Source of the DNA: a virus
Reading direction: 5' to 3' (one strand)
Virus record (IMG/VR): IMGVR_UViG_3300044712_000339
Location: 1 to 48,830 of that record
DNA length: 48,830 bases
The notes beneath the pieces are model-generated. The model did not search any database, was not told the DNA's origin, and worked only from the letters and a program-made list of their open reading frames with translations. Below, piece after piece: positions 11,475 to 44,323 of the stretch (position 1 is its first letter; each line of letters begins with the position of its first letter). A program made the translations under genes and the position numbers.

Positions 11475-12533
11475 CTAGCGGGGCACCTGATCCTGCTCCG
11501 CAATCCACTGGTAGATCATTTTGGCGAGCGGGTAGACCCAGCCGTTGCCTGCCATTCGCAGCAGAGCCTTGTTAGCTCGTGAGCGTACTCGTCCGGCCAG
11601 CCCATCAACTGCATCACCCACGCCGAATTGAGCGAGCCTCGGGGCTTCCCAGTCGTGTTGGGGTTCTCCTGGGCGGCTTGGCCAGCGAGTAACAATTCGC
11701 CCTTTCGGTTGCCACTCCGGCTCGTTGCTCCCGCATCGGCAATGCTCGCCGATGGCGTGTTCCAGTTGGCTATCTCTACCTGAAGCCCAAGAGATTGCGT
11801 TTGATTGATTCGCTTCCCGTCTTTGCCGTCCCGATACATCTTGTGTCCGATCTTCGGTTCCGTTCCATCCACTGCCGTCAACTTCTCTAGTGGTGTTCCA
11901 ACATCTGTTGTCGCTGGTGTTCTCCAATTCAGTTCCGCCTGCAACGCCAGATTGACACTTGTTGATCCGCCCCCATGAGTTTGTATCCTGCCGTTCACAA
12001 TTGGGCGATTCCTCCCCTGCATCTGTTCGTCGTGCTTTTGTGGTGTTTTCCAATCGCCCGACAATCCAGACCCTATCCCGTTTGTGTGGCGCACCGACCG
12101 ACCAAGCGCCAACCACCAATGGCCAGCAGGTGTAGCCGATTCTTTCCAGCGGAGCGATAACCCGGTCAACGCCTCGCAGTTTGATAGCAGGTACGTTCTC
12201 AATGAGGAGCCAAGTGGGTCGGACTTGGCGGATAACCCTAAACATCTCGCGCCATAGACCCGACCGGCTGCCCTCAATGCCCTCGCCTCTGCCCGCCGTT
12301 GAGAGGTTCTGACACGGGAAGCCGCCGCTAATGATGTCGATTGGCATGAACTCCCGAAGAGTGGTAGCTGAAACATCGTGAACATCCCTGAACAGCCTTG
12401 CCCTAGGAAACATCTTCTCTAAACAGTAGCAACACGCTGGCTCGCACTCACATTGTGCGGCAGTCACGATCCCGCATTGTTCGGCGGCGTAGTCGCCGAT
12501 GCCGGAGCCAGTGAACAGACTGAGGTGTTTCAT
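11475..12533 (-). CDS. DNA (cytosine-C5) methyltransferase
   Basis: A 352-residue enzyme that methylates cytosine at C5 using S-adenosylmethionine. Motif I is LSLFTGSGIGD at 4-14, motif IV GGFPCQNLS at 70-78 with catalytic Cys74, motif VI ENV at 112-114, motif VIII RDRVWIV at 152-158, and a motif IX-X-like MAGNGWVYPLAKMIY near the C terminus. The start overlaps the upstream stop as ATGA. No restriction enzyme is adjacent, so this is an orphan phage methylase, probably protecting the phage DNA from host restriction. The target recognition region, roughly 160-300, is low-complexity and is overprinted by a long open frame (11516-12385). Confidence 0.92.
   Translation of the reverse strand: MKHLSLFTGSGIGDYAAEQCGIVTAAQCECEPACCYCLEKMFPRARLFRDVHDVSATTLREFMPIDIISGGFPCQNLSTAGRGEGIEGSRSGLWREMFRVIRQVRPTWLLIENVPAIKLRGVDRVIAPLERIGYTCWPLVVGAWSVGAPHKRDRVWIVGRLENTTKARRTDAGEESPNCERQDTNSWGRINKCQSGVAGGTELENTSDNRCWNTTREVDGSGWNGTEDRTQDVSGRQRREANQSNAISWASGRDSQLEHAIGEHCRCGSNEPEWQPKGRIVTRWPSRPGEPQHDWEAPRLAQFGVGDAVDGLAGRVRSRANKALLRMAGNGWVYPLAKMIYQWIAEQDQVPR
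11516..12385 (-). CDS. Overprinted ORF inside the C5 methyltransferase gene
   Basis: A 289-codon open frame in the +1 frame of the methyltransferase, on the same strand. Its translation is not random-looking: it has three W-x-T-P words (DWKTPQ, NWRTPA, NWNTPS), a block LSLRWKESATPAGHWWLALG, and the ending SLNSAWVMQLMGWPDEY. I recall this layout, with repeated W-P-T-P words and a terminal LNP.WVEWLMG(W/F)P, from hypothetical proteins found beside phage cytosine methylases. That recollection cannot be checked here. The same DNA reads L-E-N/H-T/A in the methylase frame at each W-x-T-P site. It may be a real overprinted protein or a constrained shadow. No clear ribosome site was found for its first Met. 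Confidence 0.35.
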   Translation of the reverse strand: MFTMFQLPLFGSSCQSTSLAAASRVRTSQRRAEARALRAAGRVYGARCLGLSAKSDPLGSSLRTYLLSNCEALTGLSLRWKESATPAGHWWLALGRSVRHTNGIGSGLSGDWKTPQKHDEQMQGRNRPIVNGRIQTHGGGSTSVNLALQAELNWRTPATTDVGTPLEKLTAVDGTEPKIGHKMYRDGKDGKRINQTQSLGLQVEIANWNTPSASIADAGATSRSGNRKGELLLAGQAAQENPNTTGKPRGSLNSAWVMQLMGWPDEYAHELTRLCCEWQATAGSTRSPK

Positions 12534-12697
12534 GGAACGTCCCCGCCATATTTCTCCTCCCACCGCTTCCGAAACTCCAACTCTCGTTCGTTGTTCCAGG
12601 CCAACCCGGCGCGGAACTTCTCTAGTTCGATGGCAACATGCAACGCGAAGTCGTGGTCGCCGTGCCCGTAGTCTATGTCGTCTTGGCCGCCGGTCAT
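12530..12697 (-). CDS. Small acidic protein, unknown
   Basis: A 55-residue protein (MTGGQDDIDYGHGDHDFAL...EEKYGGDVP). The N terminus is rich in Asp, Gly and His, followed by a probable helix (HVAIELEKFRAGLAWNNERELEFRKRWEEKY). It is joined by ATGA overlaps to both the gene before it and the C5 methylase after it. That tight coupling supports the start and suggests production together with the methylase. No family is recognised. Confidence 0.6.
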   Translation of the reverse strand: MTGGQDDIDYGHGDHDFALHVAIELEKFRAGLAWNNERELEFRKRWEEKYGGDVP

Positions 12698-13029
12698 CCT
12701 CCCCTCGCTTTCTCCGCAGCTTCGCGGGTGGAAAAACATTCCGACACCAATGGGTATCCACTCGATAGTCCGCCGACCTCGACTGCCCAATAGTCCATTG
12801 CGATCCACTGACCGACGCGACTATCTCTTACGTCGTTAGGGAGATGCGGCTCCAACATTTCACCGGCCAGTGAGTAGCAAGCATCACGAGTCGGGATCAA
12901 TGTCACTCCATCCGCCGTCACGGGCAGCCGCTCGATGATGGCAGCGGCATCTAGTACGGCTCGCTGGTCGATATTTCCATCTGGCTCAAGCGCGAAAGCG
13001 GCTGCTCGTAGTCGTTCTTGTAGGGTCAT
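12694..13029 (-). CDS. Small hypothetical phage protein
   Basis: A 111-residue protein. The first part, MTLQERLRAAAFALEPDGNIDQRAVLDAAAIIERL, is a recurrent phage motif also seen in degenerate form in the next gene upstream (MEEAAAIIERLRKEL). The middle (ACYSLAGEMLEPHLPND..RDSRVGQWIAMDYWAVEVGG) is unrecognised. It is coupled by ATGA overlaps at both ends. The shared AAAIIERL element with its neighbour suggests that these small genes arose by duplication or share a protein-binding helix. Confidence 0.6.
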   Translation of the reverse strand: MTLQERLRAAAFALEPDGNIDQRAVLDAAAIIERLPVTADGVTLIPTRDACYSLAGEMLEPHLPNDVRDSRVGQWIAMDYWAVEVGGLSSGYPLVSECFSTREAAEKARGG

Positions 13030-17151: not shown

Positions 17152-17361
17152 TAGTCCTTGTTTCACGGCTCGGAAGCCGTCGAACTCAACCGCCTGTTCG
17201 TCGGTGTCCGTTGCCGCTAGATTTCCTGTCGTTTTGTAAAACGTCAAACAGTCACACCCGAAAAACTTTTCCGTTACGTCTGTCACCACCGCCTCTTGCC
17301 ACGGCGAACAGTCGCCGCCGCCGATGAGCACCGTGTCGCCGGGTTTGATGTCAGTGAACAT
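17143..17361 (-). CDS. Small beta-barrel-like protein
   Basis: A 72-residue protein (MFTDIKPGDTVLIGGGDCSPWQEAVVTDVTEKFFGCDCLTFYKTTG...). The pattern GDTVLI...VVTDV resembles the second half of the gene at 16799-17146, suggesting a common small barrel. Its ATG follows an AAGGAG site and overlaps the methyltransferase end by 11 bases. Function unknown. Confidence 0.6.
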   Translation of the reverse strand: MFTDIKPGDTVLIGGGDCSPWQEAVVTDVTEKFFGCDCLTFYKTTGNLAATDTDEQAVEFDGFRAVKQGLKQ

Positions 17362-18298
17362 GAGAGGACTCCTTTTCTTCTGCTAAGTCCCAGAGCATTG
17401 TGTTGCCTTCCCGTGCGTGCACTTCGGCCTTTATGAGATTCTTCTTTGCCGCCTCGTAATATTCCGGCTTGATCTCACAACCGAAAAACCGCCTCGGATT
17501 GGTGATGCTCTTTTTTGTTTTCGGCGAACGGCCACCCAGAGCAACGTAGCCCTCCGAACCAATGCCGGCGAACGGCGAGAATACTAACTCGCCGGGATTG
17601 GAAAACAGAATCACGCAACGGCGAATCACCTCCAACTGCAAAGGGCAGATGTGCTTGGTGTCCTCTTCGCCGCGACCTTCCGAGACATTGAGCGTGTCAG
17701 TCTCGATGATGTCATCCCAACAACCCTCAGCCCACTTGATCCAGTCGTTTCTGGAAACCTCGTTCTTGCTGTTGATTCGGACGGCGTTGTCGCCGGGTGC
17801 CCGAAACTTCAAGAGATAGTCTTGCAGCGTGCCGCGTGTTTTCGCCCGATCCGATTCAAGGCCAGAGAATTGCAACTCCCGGCTTTTGGTTCGGATAGCT
17901 TGTGCCTGCGGGTTCTTGCGAACCATCCAATCGTACTCAAACACTAACCCCGCCCGCTCGGCGATCCGCACATTCAGACCACGAAAATCATGCAGGCCCA
18001 CTTCGCCACTCCGCTTCATCCTCGGTATCTGTGCGACGTGGACAACCATCACGCGGCCCGGTTTCAACACGCGAGCCATGCCACGATAGAAAAATGACAG
18101 GTGTAGCTTCGCTTCGTGGCGAATGTCTTCGCTGTTGCCGATGTCTTCAGCCATCGACGTGTACGAATAAAGTGAGGGAAAGGGGGGCGAGAACACAGAG
18201 AAATCCACGCTCTTGGGTTCCATCCCGCCAACAACGTCCAGCGTCTCAATAATGCTGTCAGTTTGTTTCAACTCCCAATTCTGTCCTTCAGATAGCAT
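17351..18298 (-). CDS. DNA methyltransferase (N4/N6 amino type)
   Basis: A 315-residue enzyme. Motif IV is SPPF at 37-40, typical of N4-cytosine and some N6-adenine methylases. The AdoMet-binding motif I comes late (FSPFAGIGSEG at 240-250), giving the beta-group order. Between them lie motifs with conserved-looking KPGRVMVVHVAQ and a substrate region. The N-terminal residues (MLSEGQNWELKQTDSIIETL) overlap the helicase end by 11 bases. There is no partner endonuclease nearby. It probably modifies phage DNA against restriction, together with the C5 enzyme further down the operon. Confidence 0.87.
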   Translation of the reverse strand: MLSEGQNWELKQTDSIIETLDVVGGMEPKSVDFSVFSPPFPSLYSYTSMAEDIGNSEDIRHEAKLHLSFFYRGMARVLKPGRVMVVHVAQIPRMKRSGEVGLHDFRGLNVRIAERAGLVFEYDWMVRKNPQAQAIRTKSRELQFSGLESDRAKTRGTLQDYLLKFRAPGDNAVRINSKNEVSRNDWIKWAEGCWDDIIETDTLNVSEGRGEEDTKHICPLQLEVIRRCVILFSNPGELVFSPFAGIGSEGYVALGGRSPKTKKSITNPRRFFGCEIKPEYYEAAKKNLIKAEVHAREGNTMLWDLAEEKESSHVH

Positions 18299-41081: not shown

Positions 41082-42221
41082 TTACCCCGCAGAGAGCTTG
41101 AGCGTGCCGGAACTGACGTAGACCTGGTTTGCGACGGACGGATCGCTTTCGGGAAGGCCCACCAGAATCAGGGCACCGGAGGCGTAGCCAATCGTGACGG
41201 TCGTAGCCTTATCGGCACCGACGTTGACGGCACCGTTGGCACCCGAGCCGTTCTTTGCACCGCCGGTGATGTTCACGGCTCCGCCGTTTGCGTTGCCTGC
41301 GGACCCGGCACCGCCGGCGACAGTGACCGCGCCGCCAGTCCCCGATGACGAACCGCCGGCACCGCCAGTAACCGCAATCGCTCCGCCTGCGCCGGTGGCA
41401 CCACCTACGCCGCCAACCACGGAAGAGACACCACCTGCCGCCGTACCCTTTCCGGCACCGCCGGTCAGAGATACCGCACCGCCAGCGACGTTGCCGGTGG
41501 AAGCCGACACACCACCAGCGATCGCTACGGTTCCGTTGGCACCGCTGGTTGACCCGCCAGCGCCCGCGGTAATCGTGATTGCACCACCGGCTCCCGTTGC
41601 CCCGCCAGCACCGCCAACGAGCGTACATGCCCCGCCGGCCCCGGAACCGTTTCCAGCTCCGCCGGTACGCGACGTGGCACCGCCGGCCGCATTGGTGTCA
41701 CCGGCACCACCGACGATGACGACAGTTCCGCCAGCCCCTCCGGAACCAGCGATACCGCCGATGGTCAAAGCCGCGTCGGACCCGGTGATGTCGTCCGCGG
41801 TCATGCTCCCTGCCACTGTGGCGATGTTCACGCTTTCGCCGTCGATCAACACCCGGACATAGGTGTCCGTGGCGGCCGATGCTGCGGTTCCGTTCGGCTG
41901 CACTGGAGCGGCCGTGCCCATCAGGTAGTTGCCGGTAGCGGTAGCCGTCGCGCATCCGCTGAGTGCCGTTCCACCGTATGGGCTTCCGTTTTCGTCCCAG
42001 TACACTTTCGTGCCGGCGGAAATCACTTCGCCGTTTTGGGGCACGTCCCACACGCCGGTTGCGGCGAGCGTTCCCAACGGATTCAGGCTGTAGTCGATCG
42101 CGTTTGTCACGATCAACGGCCGCGAACCGATCACGACAACTTCGCCGGCAAGTTTGTCGGCGCTGGCCAGGTATTCGAGCGTCTCGCCCTCATACCGACG
42201 CAAGCAAGGCGTTTGAGCCAT
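41082..42221 (-). CDS. Capsid-associated protein with glycine-rich repeat fibre
   Basis: A 379-residue protein directly after the major capsid gene. The first 130 residues resemble capsid decoration proteins of the DUF2190 type (LAGEVVVIGSRPLIVTNAIDYSLNPLGTLAATGVWDVP, with VYWDENGSPYGGTA). From about 165 to 345 there are glycine-rich repeats (GG-A-G-x-x-x-G-x-G-G words) interrupted by regular beta words (VTVAGG, AVNITGG). Such repeats can form collagen-like or polyglycine helices and project from the capsid. A short C-terminal domain follows. The second ATG is preferred because of ribosome spacing. Confidence 0.72.
   Translation of the reverse strand: MAQTPCLRRYEGETLEYLASADKLAGEVVVIGSRPLIVTNAIDYSLNPLGTLAATGVWDVPQNGEVISAGTKVYWDENGSPYGGTALSGCATATATGNYLMGTAAPVQPNGTAASAATDTYVRVLIDGESVNIATVAGSMTADDITGSDAALTIGGIAGSGGAGGTVVIVGGAGDTNAAGGATSRTGGAGNGSGAGGACTLVGGAGGATGAGGAITITAGAGGSTSGANGTVAIAGGVSASTGNVAGGAVSLTGGAGKGTAAGGVSSVVGGVGGATGAGGAIAVTGGAGGSSSGTGGAVTVAGGAGSAGNANGGAVNITGGAKNGSGANGAVNVGADKATTVTIGYASGALILVGLPESDPSVANQVYVSSGTLKLSAG
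41223..41745 (-). repeat. Degenerate glycine-repeat coding region
   Basis: About 10 imperfect repeats of 45-60 bases coding for G-G-A-G-rich units. On the opposite strand this gives open proline/alanine frames, which are shadows. The regular pattern of GCCGCC-like words is unlike the rest of the gene. Confidence 0.7.
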
Positions 42222-42262
42222 TTTCATATCTCCTCAAAAAAAGTTGGTCAGTTTGGAAAAAC

Positions 42263-42297
42263 GGCAGGGGGCCTTTCGGCCCCGAGCCGGAAAAGTT
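42263..42297 (-). terminator. Hairpin terminator between capsid and decoration genes
   Basis: On the minus strand, CGGC-TC-GGGGCC-GAAA-GGCCCC-CT-GCCG followed by TTTTT: a stable stem with a GNRA-type tetraloop and a short T run. It lies directly after the capsid stop (42302), inside the late operon, and could lower transcription of the distal genes relative to the capsid. Confidence 0.8.
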
Positions 42298-42301
42298 GAC
42301 G

Positions 42302-44323
42302 TTAGGCGGTGGCCTTGAGGCTGCCGCGGTACTCGCCCATGTCCGCTCCGAAGTCGTGATAACCGCGGAACTGAATCCCGAGGGTATCGAAGTCGGCGTC
42401 GGCCGATTCGATGACCGGCTCTTGGCGACCATCGAGGAAAGACGCGATGACCGGCAACATGATCGACGTGAGCAAATACCACGTTGTGGCCGAGTAGCCG
42501 GTGTAGGCACTGTTTCCCAACTCGGGCACAGCCACCGGGCGGAAACTGCCCTGGTAGATGTTGGCCGTGGTGTACTTCGTGCTGGCCGTGGTGTCGCGGA
42601 TTTCGGACGACACGTAGATTTTCTTGGCCGTCGCTTCAAGGGCGGTCGGCACAAGCACGATCTCGGGGTTCAACCCCATCATGTTTCCGTCGGGGCCGGC
42701 CATGTCACGGAACGCCTGCACGGCCGTGTTGAGTCCGGCCTCAGCGAGCGCGGAGCTTGTGACCAAGTTTCCGCGGGCGGCGGTCCAGAACGTGCCGGCA
42801 TTGCTGGCAGTCATAAACGTCTGCCAGATGATTTTCTGAAGCTTGATCTGAGCACCCATACCCAAACGGGTACGGATGTCGTTGAACGCTCCAAGGTCGT
42901 CATTGATGATGTCCTGTCGCGTCAGAGCGAGCATCTTCGCGTAGGTCTTGGCCTGCGCGGTGTAGCTCTCCTGTCCGAGGGTTCCGTGCTTGATCTCGCC
43001 AGCCGGTCCGACCTCTTCGTATTCGAGGCCGGCCGTCATGCGATACAGTGTGACCTGCTTGAAGTCGCTGACCGTGCGGGGAGTGGCGATGGTCCGCCAG
43101 CTCGACGGAATCATATTGAACCCGTCCAAGAGGAGCTTGTTGCCGGCCGTGGTCAGCAACGTAGTCAAGGAGTGCGTCGAGAACGCGGCACGGATCACTT
43201 CGGCAGCGTTGCCGGTGGTAATCGACGACCGGCCGTTGTAGCCGTTGGCGCGAGCGTGGATCAGCAGCAACTCACCGAGGCGGACGCCGCGATATTGCTT
43301 CTCGGCCGCCTCGATTACCTCGGGCTTGTAGTGCTTCTCCGGCGATGCAAGCCCGCCCTGCAAGCACAACGCCGCCTCGATCACCTGCGGGCCGGCTTCG
43401 TGGTTCCCGGCGTGGATCGCGGGTGCCTTCGGCAACTCCGCCTTCAGCACGGCCACTTCGGTCTTGTTCGCGTCCCATCCTTCGCCGATGGCCTGCGCCT
43501 GGATGTCGGGATGGTTCGCACACAGCTTGGAAATGGCCGCGATCCGGGTGGATTCCGCAGCCGCAGCAGCGCGAATCTCGGCAGCCGGATCAGCGGCCTT
43601 GATCGGTGCGGCAGGCGGTTCGGCCGGCTTCTGCAAAGCGTCGTATTTCGCTTGCAGCTTGCCGCGCGACTCTTCGGACAATGTGGCCGGATCAAGGCAA
43701 TACTCGGCCTGTACCCATTTCTCGAATTCGTTCATTTTTGGTTCTCCGTTTGAACATGCGGCAATAGCCGCGACCTTGGCGGATGTTTTGCCGTCGGCAG
43801 CCATCGCCACAAAAGAGACTTCACCGAGGGTTGATTTACGGGCCACATACAGCGGACCCGTAAGCGTTTTTCCATTGACTTTCGTTGTCACGCCTTCGCC
43901 AACAAACTCCATCTTGTCGGGGCGTGCGCCGACCGATGCCTTCCAGGGGAAACCCTGTTTCGAGCTTTCGAGGACTTGGGCCGCTTCGACACTCGCACCG
44001 GAAATCACTCCGGCAAGATCGAGGTTTGAATCACCGGCCGTTACTTCGTCCGCGTGGCCAACCAGCTTGTCCATCGAATGGTTCATCAGGATCGGGAGCG
44101 GTGCCTTCGCAGTGAGCCCGGCCATGTCGATCACCACGGGCGCACCGTAGTAGCCGACGGACATCGGCCCGCCCGTGTAGGCCCGCATCTTGAATCGCTT
44201 CGGGGCGTTATCCGCGGGAGTCTCGGCGCTTGCCTGCACCCACTCGACTGCCGACACGTCGCAGCAGATCGTATGCGACGAATCGGCCGCTCGGATCATG
44301 CGCCGCTTGCTGTGTTTGCTCAT
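42302..44323 (-). CDS. Prohead protease/major capsid protein fusion
   Basis: A 673-residue protein combining two normally separate genes. Residues about 30-190 are protease-like (PILMNHSMDKLVGHADEV, the H-x-N-H area, and STLGEVSFVAM, the serine-strand pattern of prohead proteases). After a linker and coiled-coil (AEIRAAAAAESTRIAAISKLC), residues about 350-673 form a capsid domain with the C terminus PVIESADADFDTLGIQFRGYHDFGADMGEYRGS, typical of the Mu gpT-like capsid group. The two may be separated by self-cleavage. It starts four bases before the portal stop (ATGA). Confidence 0.88.
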   Translation of the reverse strand: MSKHSKRRMIRAADSSHTICCDVSAVEWVQASAETPADNAPKRFKMRAYTGGPMSVGYYGAPVVIDMAGLTAKAPLPILMNHSMDKLVGHADEVTAGDSNLDLAGVISGASVEAAQVLESSKQGFPWKASVGARPDKMEFVGEGVTTKVNGKTLTGPLYVARKSTLGEVSFVAMAADGKTSAKVAAIAACSNGEPKMNEFEKWVQAEYCLDPATLSEESRGKLQAKYDALQKPAEPPAAPIKAADPAAEIRAAAAAESTRIAAISKLCANHPDIQAQAIGEGWDANKTEVAVLKAELPKAPAIHAGNHEAGPQVIEAALCLQGGLASPEKHYKPEVIEAAEKQYRGVRLGELLLIHARANGYNGRSSITTGNAAEVIRAAFSTHSLTTLLTTAGNKLLLDGFNMIPSSWRTIATPRTVSDFKQVTLYRMTAGLEYEEVGPAGEIKHGTLGQESYTAQAKTYAKMLALTRQDIINDDLGAFNDIRTRLGMGAQIKLQKIIWQTFMTASNAGTFWTAARGNLVTSSALAEAGLNTAVQAFRDMAGPDGNMMGLNPEIVLVPTALEATAKKIYVSSEIRDTTASTKYTTANIYQGSFRPVAVPELGNSAYTGYSATTWYLLTSIMLPVIASFLDGRQEPVIESADADFDTLGIQFRGYHDFGADMGEYRGSLKATA

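Follow-up and report, generated by a model that had tools for sequence, protein, structure and literature searches.

C5-cytosine DNA methyltransferases that are divided between two polypeptides have been described previously. The best comparison for the locus considered here is M.EcoHK31I (YGGCCR; Lee, Kam & Shaw 1995, cited in PMC3404938). This C5 methyltransferase is made of two polypeptides, of which the large subunit contains motifs I-VIII, motif X and the predicted TRD, and the small one contains motif IX only (PMC3404938). M.AquI is also a split, two-subunit enzyme, with motifs IX and X both located in its small subunit (PMC3404938). A different type of additional reading frame is found in the ShiLan element, an HNH homing endonuclease that is inserted in phage methylases (PMC11855218). 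Finally, a second open reading frame has been annotated inside a cytosine methylase of two phages: ORF30 of phage K1G (termed an ‘Mte8-like protein’) and gp63 of Paenibacillus phage Lily (termed ‘g62 internal gene’). The ‘Mte8-like’ label probably refers to a UniProt entry for EcoHK31I; the small subunit of M.EcoHK31I, too, is reportedly read from a different frame within the gene for its large subunit. A literature search found no paper on a general overlap of this kind in phages.

The DNA analysed here (‘the window’) is the whole 48,830-nucleotide stretch of IMGVR_UViG_3300044712_000339, a 48.8-kb virus record belonging to a tailed phage. A preliminary description of its sequence had reported a 289-codon +1 frame inside a C5 methylase, bearing three W-x-T-P words at which the methylase frame reads LENT, LENT and LEHA. 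The frame is indeed present (11516-12385 (-), within an ORF spanning 11475-12761 (-)), as are the three words at the places claimed for them. The same description had SLNSAWVMQLMGWPDEY as the ending of the frame; that word does occur, at about 11585-11635, with 22 residues still to come after it. The upstream limit of the methylase ORF (alpha) lies at 12761 (-), and its likely true start is the ATG at 12533; for the +1 protein (beta) the start options are the ATG at 12385 or the ATG at 12376, the latter having the better SD. Elsewhere in the window, a second methyltransferase-like protein (17351-18298 (-), with phrog_67 and phrog_16 matches) adjoins a helicase gene, and a 673-aa protein (42302-44323 (-)), which has matches to head maturation protease families as well as to major head protein families and is probably a fusion, has a 596-codon open frame antisense to it (41963-43753 (+)). 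The features of the methylase locus are as follows.

11475..12533 (-): alpha, C5-cytosine methyltransferase, 352 aa, with motifs I-VIII and X and without IX (PF00145)
12495..12518 (-): alpha motif I, LFTGSGIG
12300..12326 (-): alpha motif IV, with the catalytic Cys, GGFPCQNLS
12192..12203 (-): alpha motif VI, IENV
12066..12092 (-): alpha motif VIII, APHKRDRVW
11529..11555 (-): alpha motif X, MAGNGWVYP
11516..12385 (-): beta, overprinted +1-frame protein, 289 aa (phrog_1008 match, full-length relative, selection tests)
12356..12370 (-): QLPLF, putative beta-sliding-clamp-binding motif at the beta N-terminus
12092..12217 (-): beta helix and beta-hairpin, residues 57-98, LRWKESATPAGHWWLAL, the part confidently predicted by AF2
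12041..12052 (-): beta word WKTP (LENT in the alpha frame)
11915..11926 (-): beta word WRTP (LENT in the alpha frame)
11753..11764 (-): beta word WNTP (LEHA in the alpha frame)
11585..11632 (-): C5-MTase motif IX in beta, LNSAWVMQLMGWPDEY, spaced as in M.HhaI (LHPRECARVMGYPDSY)

On the comparative evidence, this locus appears to specify a two-subunit C5-cytosine DNA methyltransferase, written in a single stretch of DNA, that would methylate phage DNA; we place the probability of this reading at roughly 85%. The annotated frame would produce alpha, furnishing the AdoMet and catalytic motifs (I-VIII) and motif X, and the +1 frame, presumably read from its own internal start codon, would produce beta, furnishing a variable region of W-x-T-P words as well as motif IX. 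Alpha and beta would then join, like the polypeptides of M.EcoHK31I, to form a single active enzyme. Both frames are variable where target recognition is expected to lie, so that overprinting would hold matched halves together upon recombination of the gene.

In order to avoid bias, a ‘methylase-first’ set of relatives (76 complete phage genes) was collected by methylase motifs only. In 72 of these 76 genes no stop interrupts the +1 frame between the PCQ motif and the end of the conserved word near the C-terminus of beta, and the +2 frame averages 11.6 stops; the stop test in homologues that had been suggested at the outset thus favors the overprinted frame. When synonymous codons were shuffled within each of 71 non-redundant methylase-first genes, a +1 frame open to within 20 codons or fewer of the methylase end was expected in 1.1 genes and is found in 52, the mean number of +1 stops is 0.48 (versus 4.2 after shuffling), and the score against the beta profile exceeds that of all 20 shuffles in every gene (71/71). 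The +2 frame behaves neutrally in the same genes (11.7 stops versus 11.3). For the window alone, the openness of the +1 frame corresponds to P=0.0016 under synonymous shuffling, and W.TP-like words number 156 in the +1 frame of related genes, against 32 expected. As a control, 80 canonical phage C5 methylases were fetched, of which 76 were usable; none of the 76 has an open +1 frame.

Both frames are under selection. Across 28 independent pairs, differences at the first, second and third codon positions of the methylase are 0.129/0.074/0.351 in the N-terminal part that is free of overlap and 0.240/0.144/0.258 where the two frames overlap. A segmented version of this test, in which third-position differences were divided by first-position differences in 19 pairs, bore out the extra constraint that the preliminary description had proposed to look for: the ratio drops from 2.57 upstream of the +1 start to 1.74 across the catalytic motifs, to 0.91 within the variable overlap region and to 0.39 at motif IX, and then returns to 1.95 past the +1 stop. 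(The corresponding values for canonical methylases are 2.09 in the first 52 codons and 1.74 in the remainder.) Within the C-terminal word of beta, no codon position changes more slowly than the wobble base of the methylase. The signal of constraint starts and stops with the hidden frame, and the codon-position ratios, together with the open +1 frame in 72 of 76 relatives, support the original suggestion of a real overprinted pair with both frames selected.

What the hidden frame might contribute is indicated by its C-terminal word, LNPxWVEWLMGYPxGW, which has the exact spacing of C5-methylase motif IX (compare M.HhaI LHPRECARVMGYPDSY and Dcm LTPRECARLMGF). The LMG(W/F)P word remarked upon in the preliminary description is, judged by this likeness, motif IX of a C5 methyltransferase, a pointer to function that had been missed. 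A strict motif IX pattern (L.P.5[LMV][QM]G[FYW]P) is found in the +1 frame of 49 of 69 split-type genes, against 0.14 expected, and in 58 of 69 if a looser version is counted; the strict pattern is found in the alpha frame of none of the 69. Canonical genes display the reverse arrangement, with motif IX in frame in 38 of 76 (62 of 76 by the looser pattern) and in the +1 frame in 0 of 76. Alpha itself matches PF00145 (1.5e-35) over profile positions 1-247 (1-243 in a second run) of 324, and its alignment to canonical MTases ends at motif VIII; motif X is retained in the alpha of 67 of 69 split-type relatives. An hhalign comparison of beta with canonical MTases aligns on motif IX, with a match that is weak alone (E 0.16, 19 columns). 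Because motif IX is present in the +1 protein and absent from alpha, the +1 protein is most likely the beta (motif-IX) subunit of a split enzyme.

The beta family is PHROG 1008, which bears the label ‘DNA methyltransferase’: the window beta matches its profile at 6.6e-10, and each of the 97 betas tested has a match to it. The window beta matched no Pfam or NCBIfam family above the cut-off, and the beta profile had no match in the PDB. The early guess that a database family might be made of overprinted frames is borne out by these 97 +1 proteins, since every locus examined is overprinted; the accompanying notion that such a family would partly consist of shadows, as noise, is not, because what is found is rather a conserved protein family. 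A relative on another IMG/VR contig is 46% identical to the window beta over its full length, with both frames intact, and tblastn searches with the +1 protein also located the frame in Rhizobium phage RHph_X2_25 and phage C72C1, within genes annotated as methylases. A search with the beta profile yielded 80 viral loci. The same relative frame within a C5 methylase is occupied at 83 of 83 ‘shadow-first’ viral loci (the window included), and 80 further loci were recovered by scanning bacterial genomes, all 80 of them with the +1 overlap; no free-standing beta was found among these 83 viral and 80 bacterial loci. Phages of Paenibacillus, Escherichia, Klebsiella, Salmonella, Pseudomonas, Xanthomonas, Vibrio and Lacticaseibacillus are among those whose records have the beta frame. 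The neighbours tested at bacterial loci are phage-like or of function not known, and the ten neighbouring proteins tested include no restriction enzyme (Dam, phage GPA and DUFs were found). At two loci (L054 and L056) the alpha and beta profile matches exchange frames midway, as would follow from one indel, or one sequencing error, where a gene is read in two frames, and at two others (L297 and L310) the alpha profile partly matches in the frame of beta plus an overlapping one, a possible frame junction or fusion.

A plausible start for beta exists within alpha for most genes. The best candidate is an ATG in 100 of 129, with a median SD energy of -6.4; these figures are descriptive, as the starts were picked partly by SD. 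Frequent N-termini of beta include MTQxDLF, QQTDLFG and EQLTLF (that of the window is MFQLPLF), and the pattern Q..[LMI]F near the start is found in 50 of 129 betas (approximately 40%), against 3.4 expected from shuffles, with the narrower QL.LF found in 14 of 129 against 0.36 expected. The bacterial clamp-binding consensus is QL(S/D)LF (PMC9690074), and the N-terminal motif of beta (QLPLF in the window, and present in some 40% of betas) is likely, from this resemblance, to be a sliding-clamp-binding motif. Such a motif, which many betas share with that of the window, may hold the enzyme at the replication clamp. In one beta subfamily (L058, L052 and L073), the clamp-like motif is instead C-terminal (QRDLFG, QLALFG or QLSLFG). 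When beta was modelled alone with AF2, the pTM was 0.28 in both runs; pLDDT is about 90 in the helix-hairpin block (residues 57-96 or 57-98 of the window beta), the motif IX helix is also confident and the remainder is poorly defined. This poor lone model would suit an obligate subunit, and also a poorly constrained protein.

Several other accounts of the +1 frame were weighed against a split enzyme. Beta might be a real overprinted protein with a function of its own (for example, a clamp-binding regulator or an anti-restriction factor) and no role as a methylase subunit; its clamp-like N-terminal motif, the large part of it that has no counterpart in canonical MTases and its want of any known domain would all suit such a protein, but beta carries motif IX, in canonical spacing, exactly where alpha has none and is never seen without an overlapping alpha, which makes this reading unlikely. 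Still less probable is a programmed +1 frameshift past motif VIII, creating one fused protein from motifs I-VIII of alpha and motif IX of beta. Although motif IX would thereby be brought back into a single chain, beta possesses its own, usually conserved ATG with an SD, its N-terminal half is conserved where it overlaps motifs IV-VIII and selection reaches there, and the fused product would be without motif X, which alpha retains downstream of the motif IX of beta.

It is scarcely credible that conservation of the methylase, together with codon bias, produced the +1 frame mechanically, as a shadow. The beta profile does partly echo alpha motifs, in that canonical MTases give weak, stop-broken +1 matches to it, but this echo, which is real, is confined to the N-terminal half of beta and is at about shuffle level, so that the argument rests instead upon how open the frame is, upon motif IX and upon position rates. 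Synonymous shuffles fall far short of the real genes in openness, in profile score and in motif IX, canonical MTases never hold the +1 frame open and the codon-position pattern is inverted; a chance shadow is thus ruled out by the shuffles, the canonical control and the codon-position rates.

With the two-subunit enzyme as the favored reading, a very large group of phage C5 methylases apparently comprises two overprinted proteins, and what is usually annotated as one protein would probably be a two-subunit enzyme. Probably, then, many of the phage C5 methylases whose annotation presents them as complete single chains are half an enzyme, and a recoded version of the annotated ORF, expressed alone, should accordingly fail. 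Same-strand overprints of 150-400 codons that are kept across many unrelated phages are rare, and the methylase overprint offers both a functional reading and an internal test, as the hidden frame has the motif missing from the annotated one. A broader proposal, somewhat less probable than its converse, is that these genes represent an ancient, obligately dual-coded class of phage C5 methylases, in which target recognition might be shared by the two frames and beta might anchor the enzyme on the sliding clamp of host or phage. The 5mC marking of phage DNA would then be coupled to replication, a role like the one proposed for PCNA binding in guiding DNMT1. The two-subunit reading would also give PHROG 1008 a role, and clamp-tethered phage methylation becomes directly testable.

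Among the known systems, the ShiLan element likewise places an out-of-frame ORF in a phage methylase gene, but as an insertion, with no overprint of the methylase itself. M.AquI is likewise split, but differs in that alpha here keeps motif X. K1G ORF30 and Lily gp63 were noted case by case, in records that give no function or general pattern, and PHROG 1008 is not described as overprinted, whereas all of its members examined here are. M.EcoHK31I is a single restriction-modification enzyme; the family described here, in contrast, takes in hundreds of loci in phages and prophages, with no restriction enzyme among the tested neighbours, whose betas frequently bear an N-terminal clamp-like motif and W-x-T-P words. 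The embedding of the small-subunit frame within the large-subunit gene, observed at the loci here, is reportedly shared by M.EcoHK31I. As M.EcoHK31I is described in PMC3404938, the division of motifs is also the same, with I-VIII and X in one polypeptide and IX in the other.
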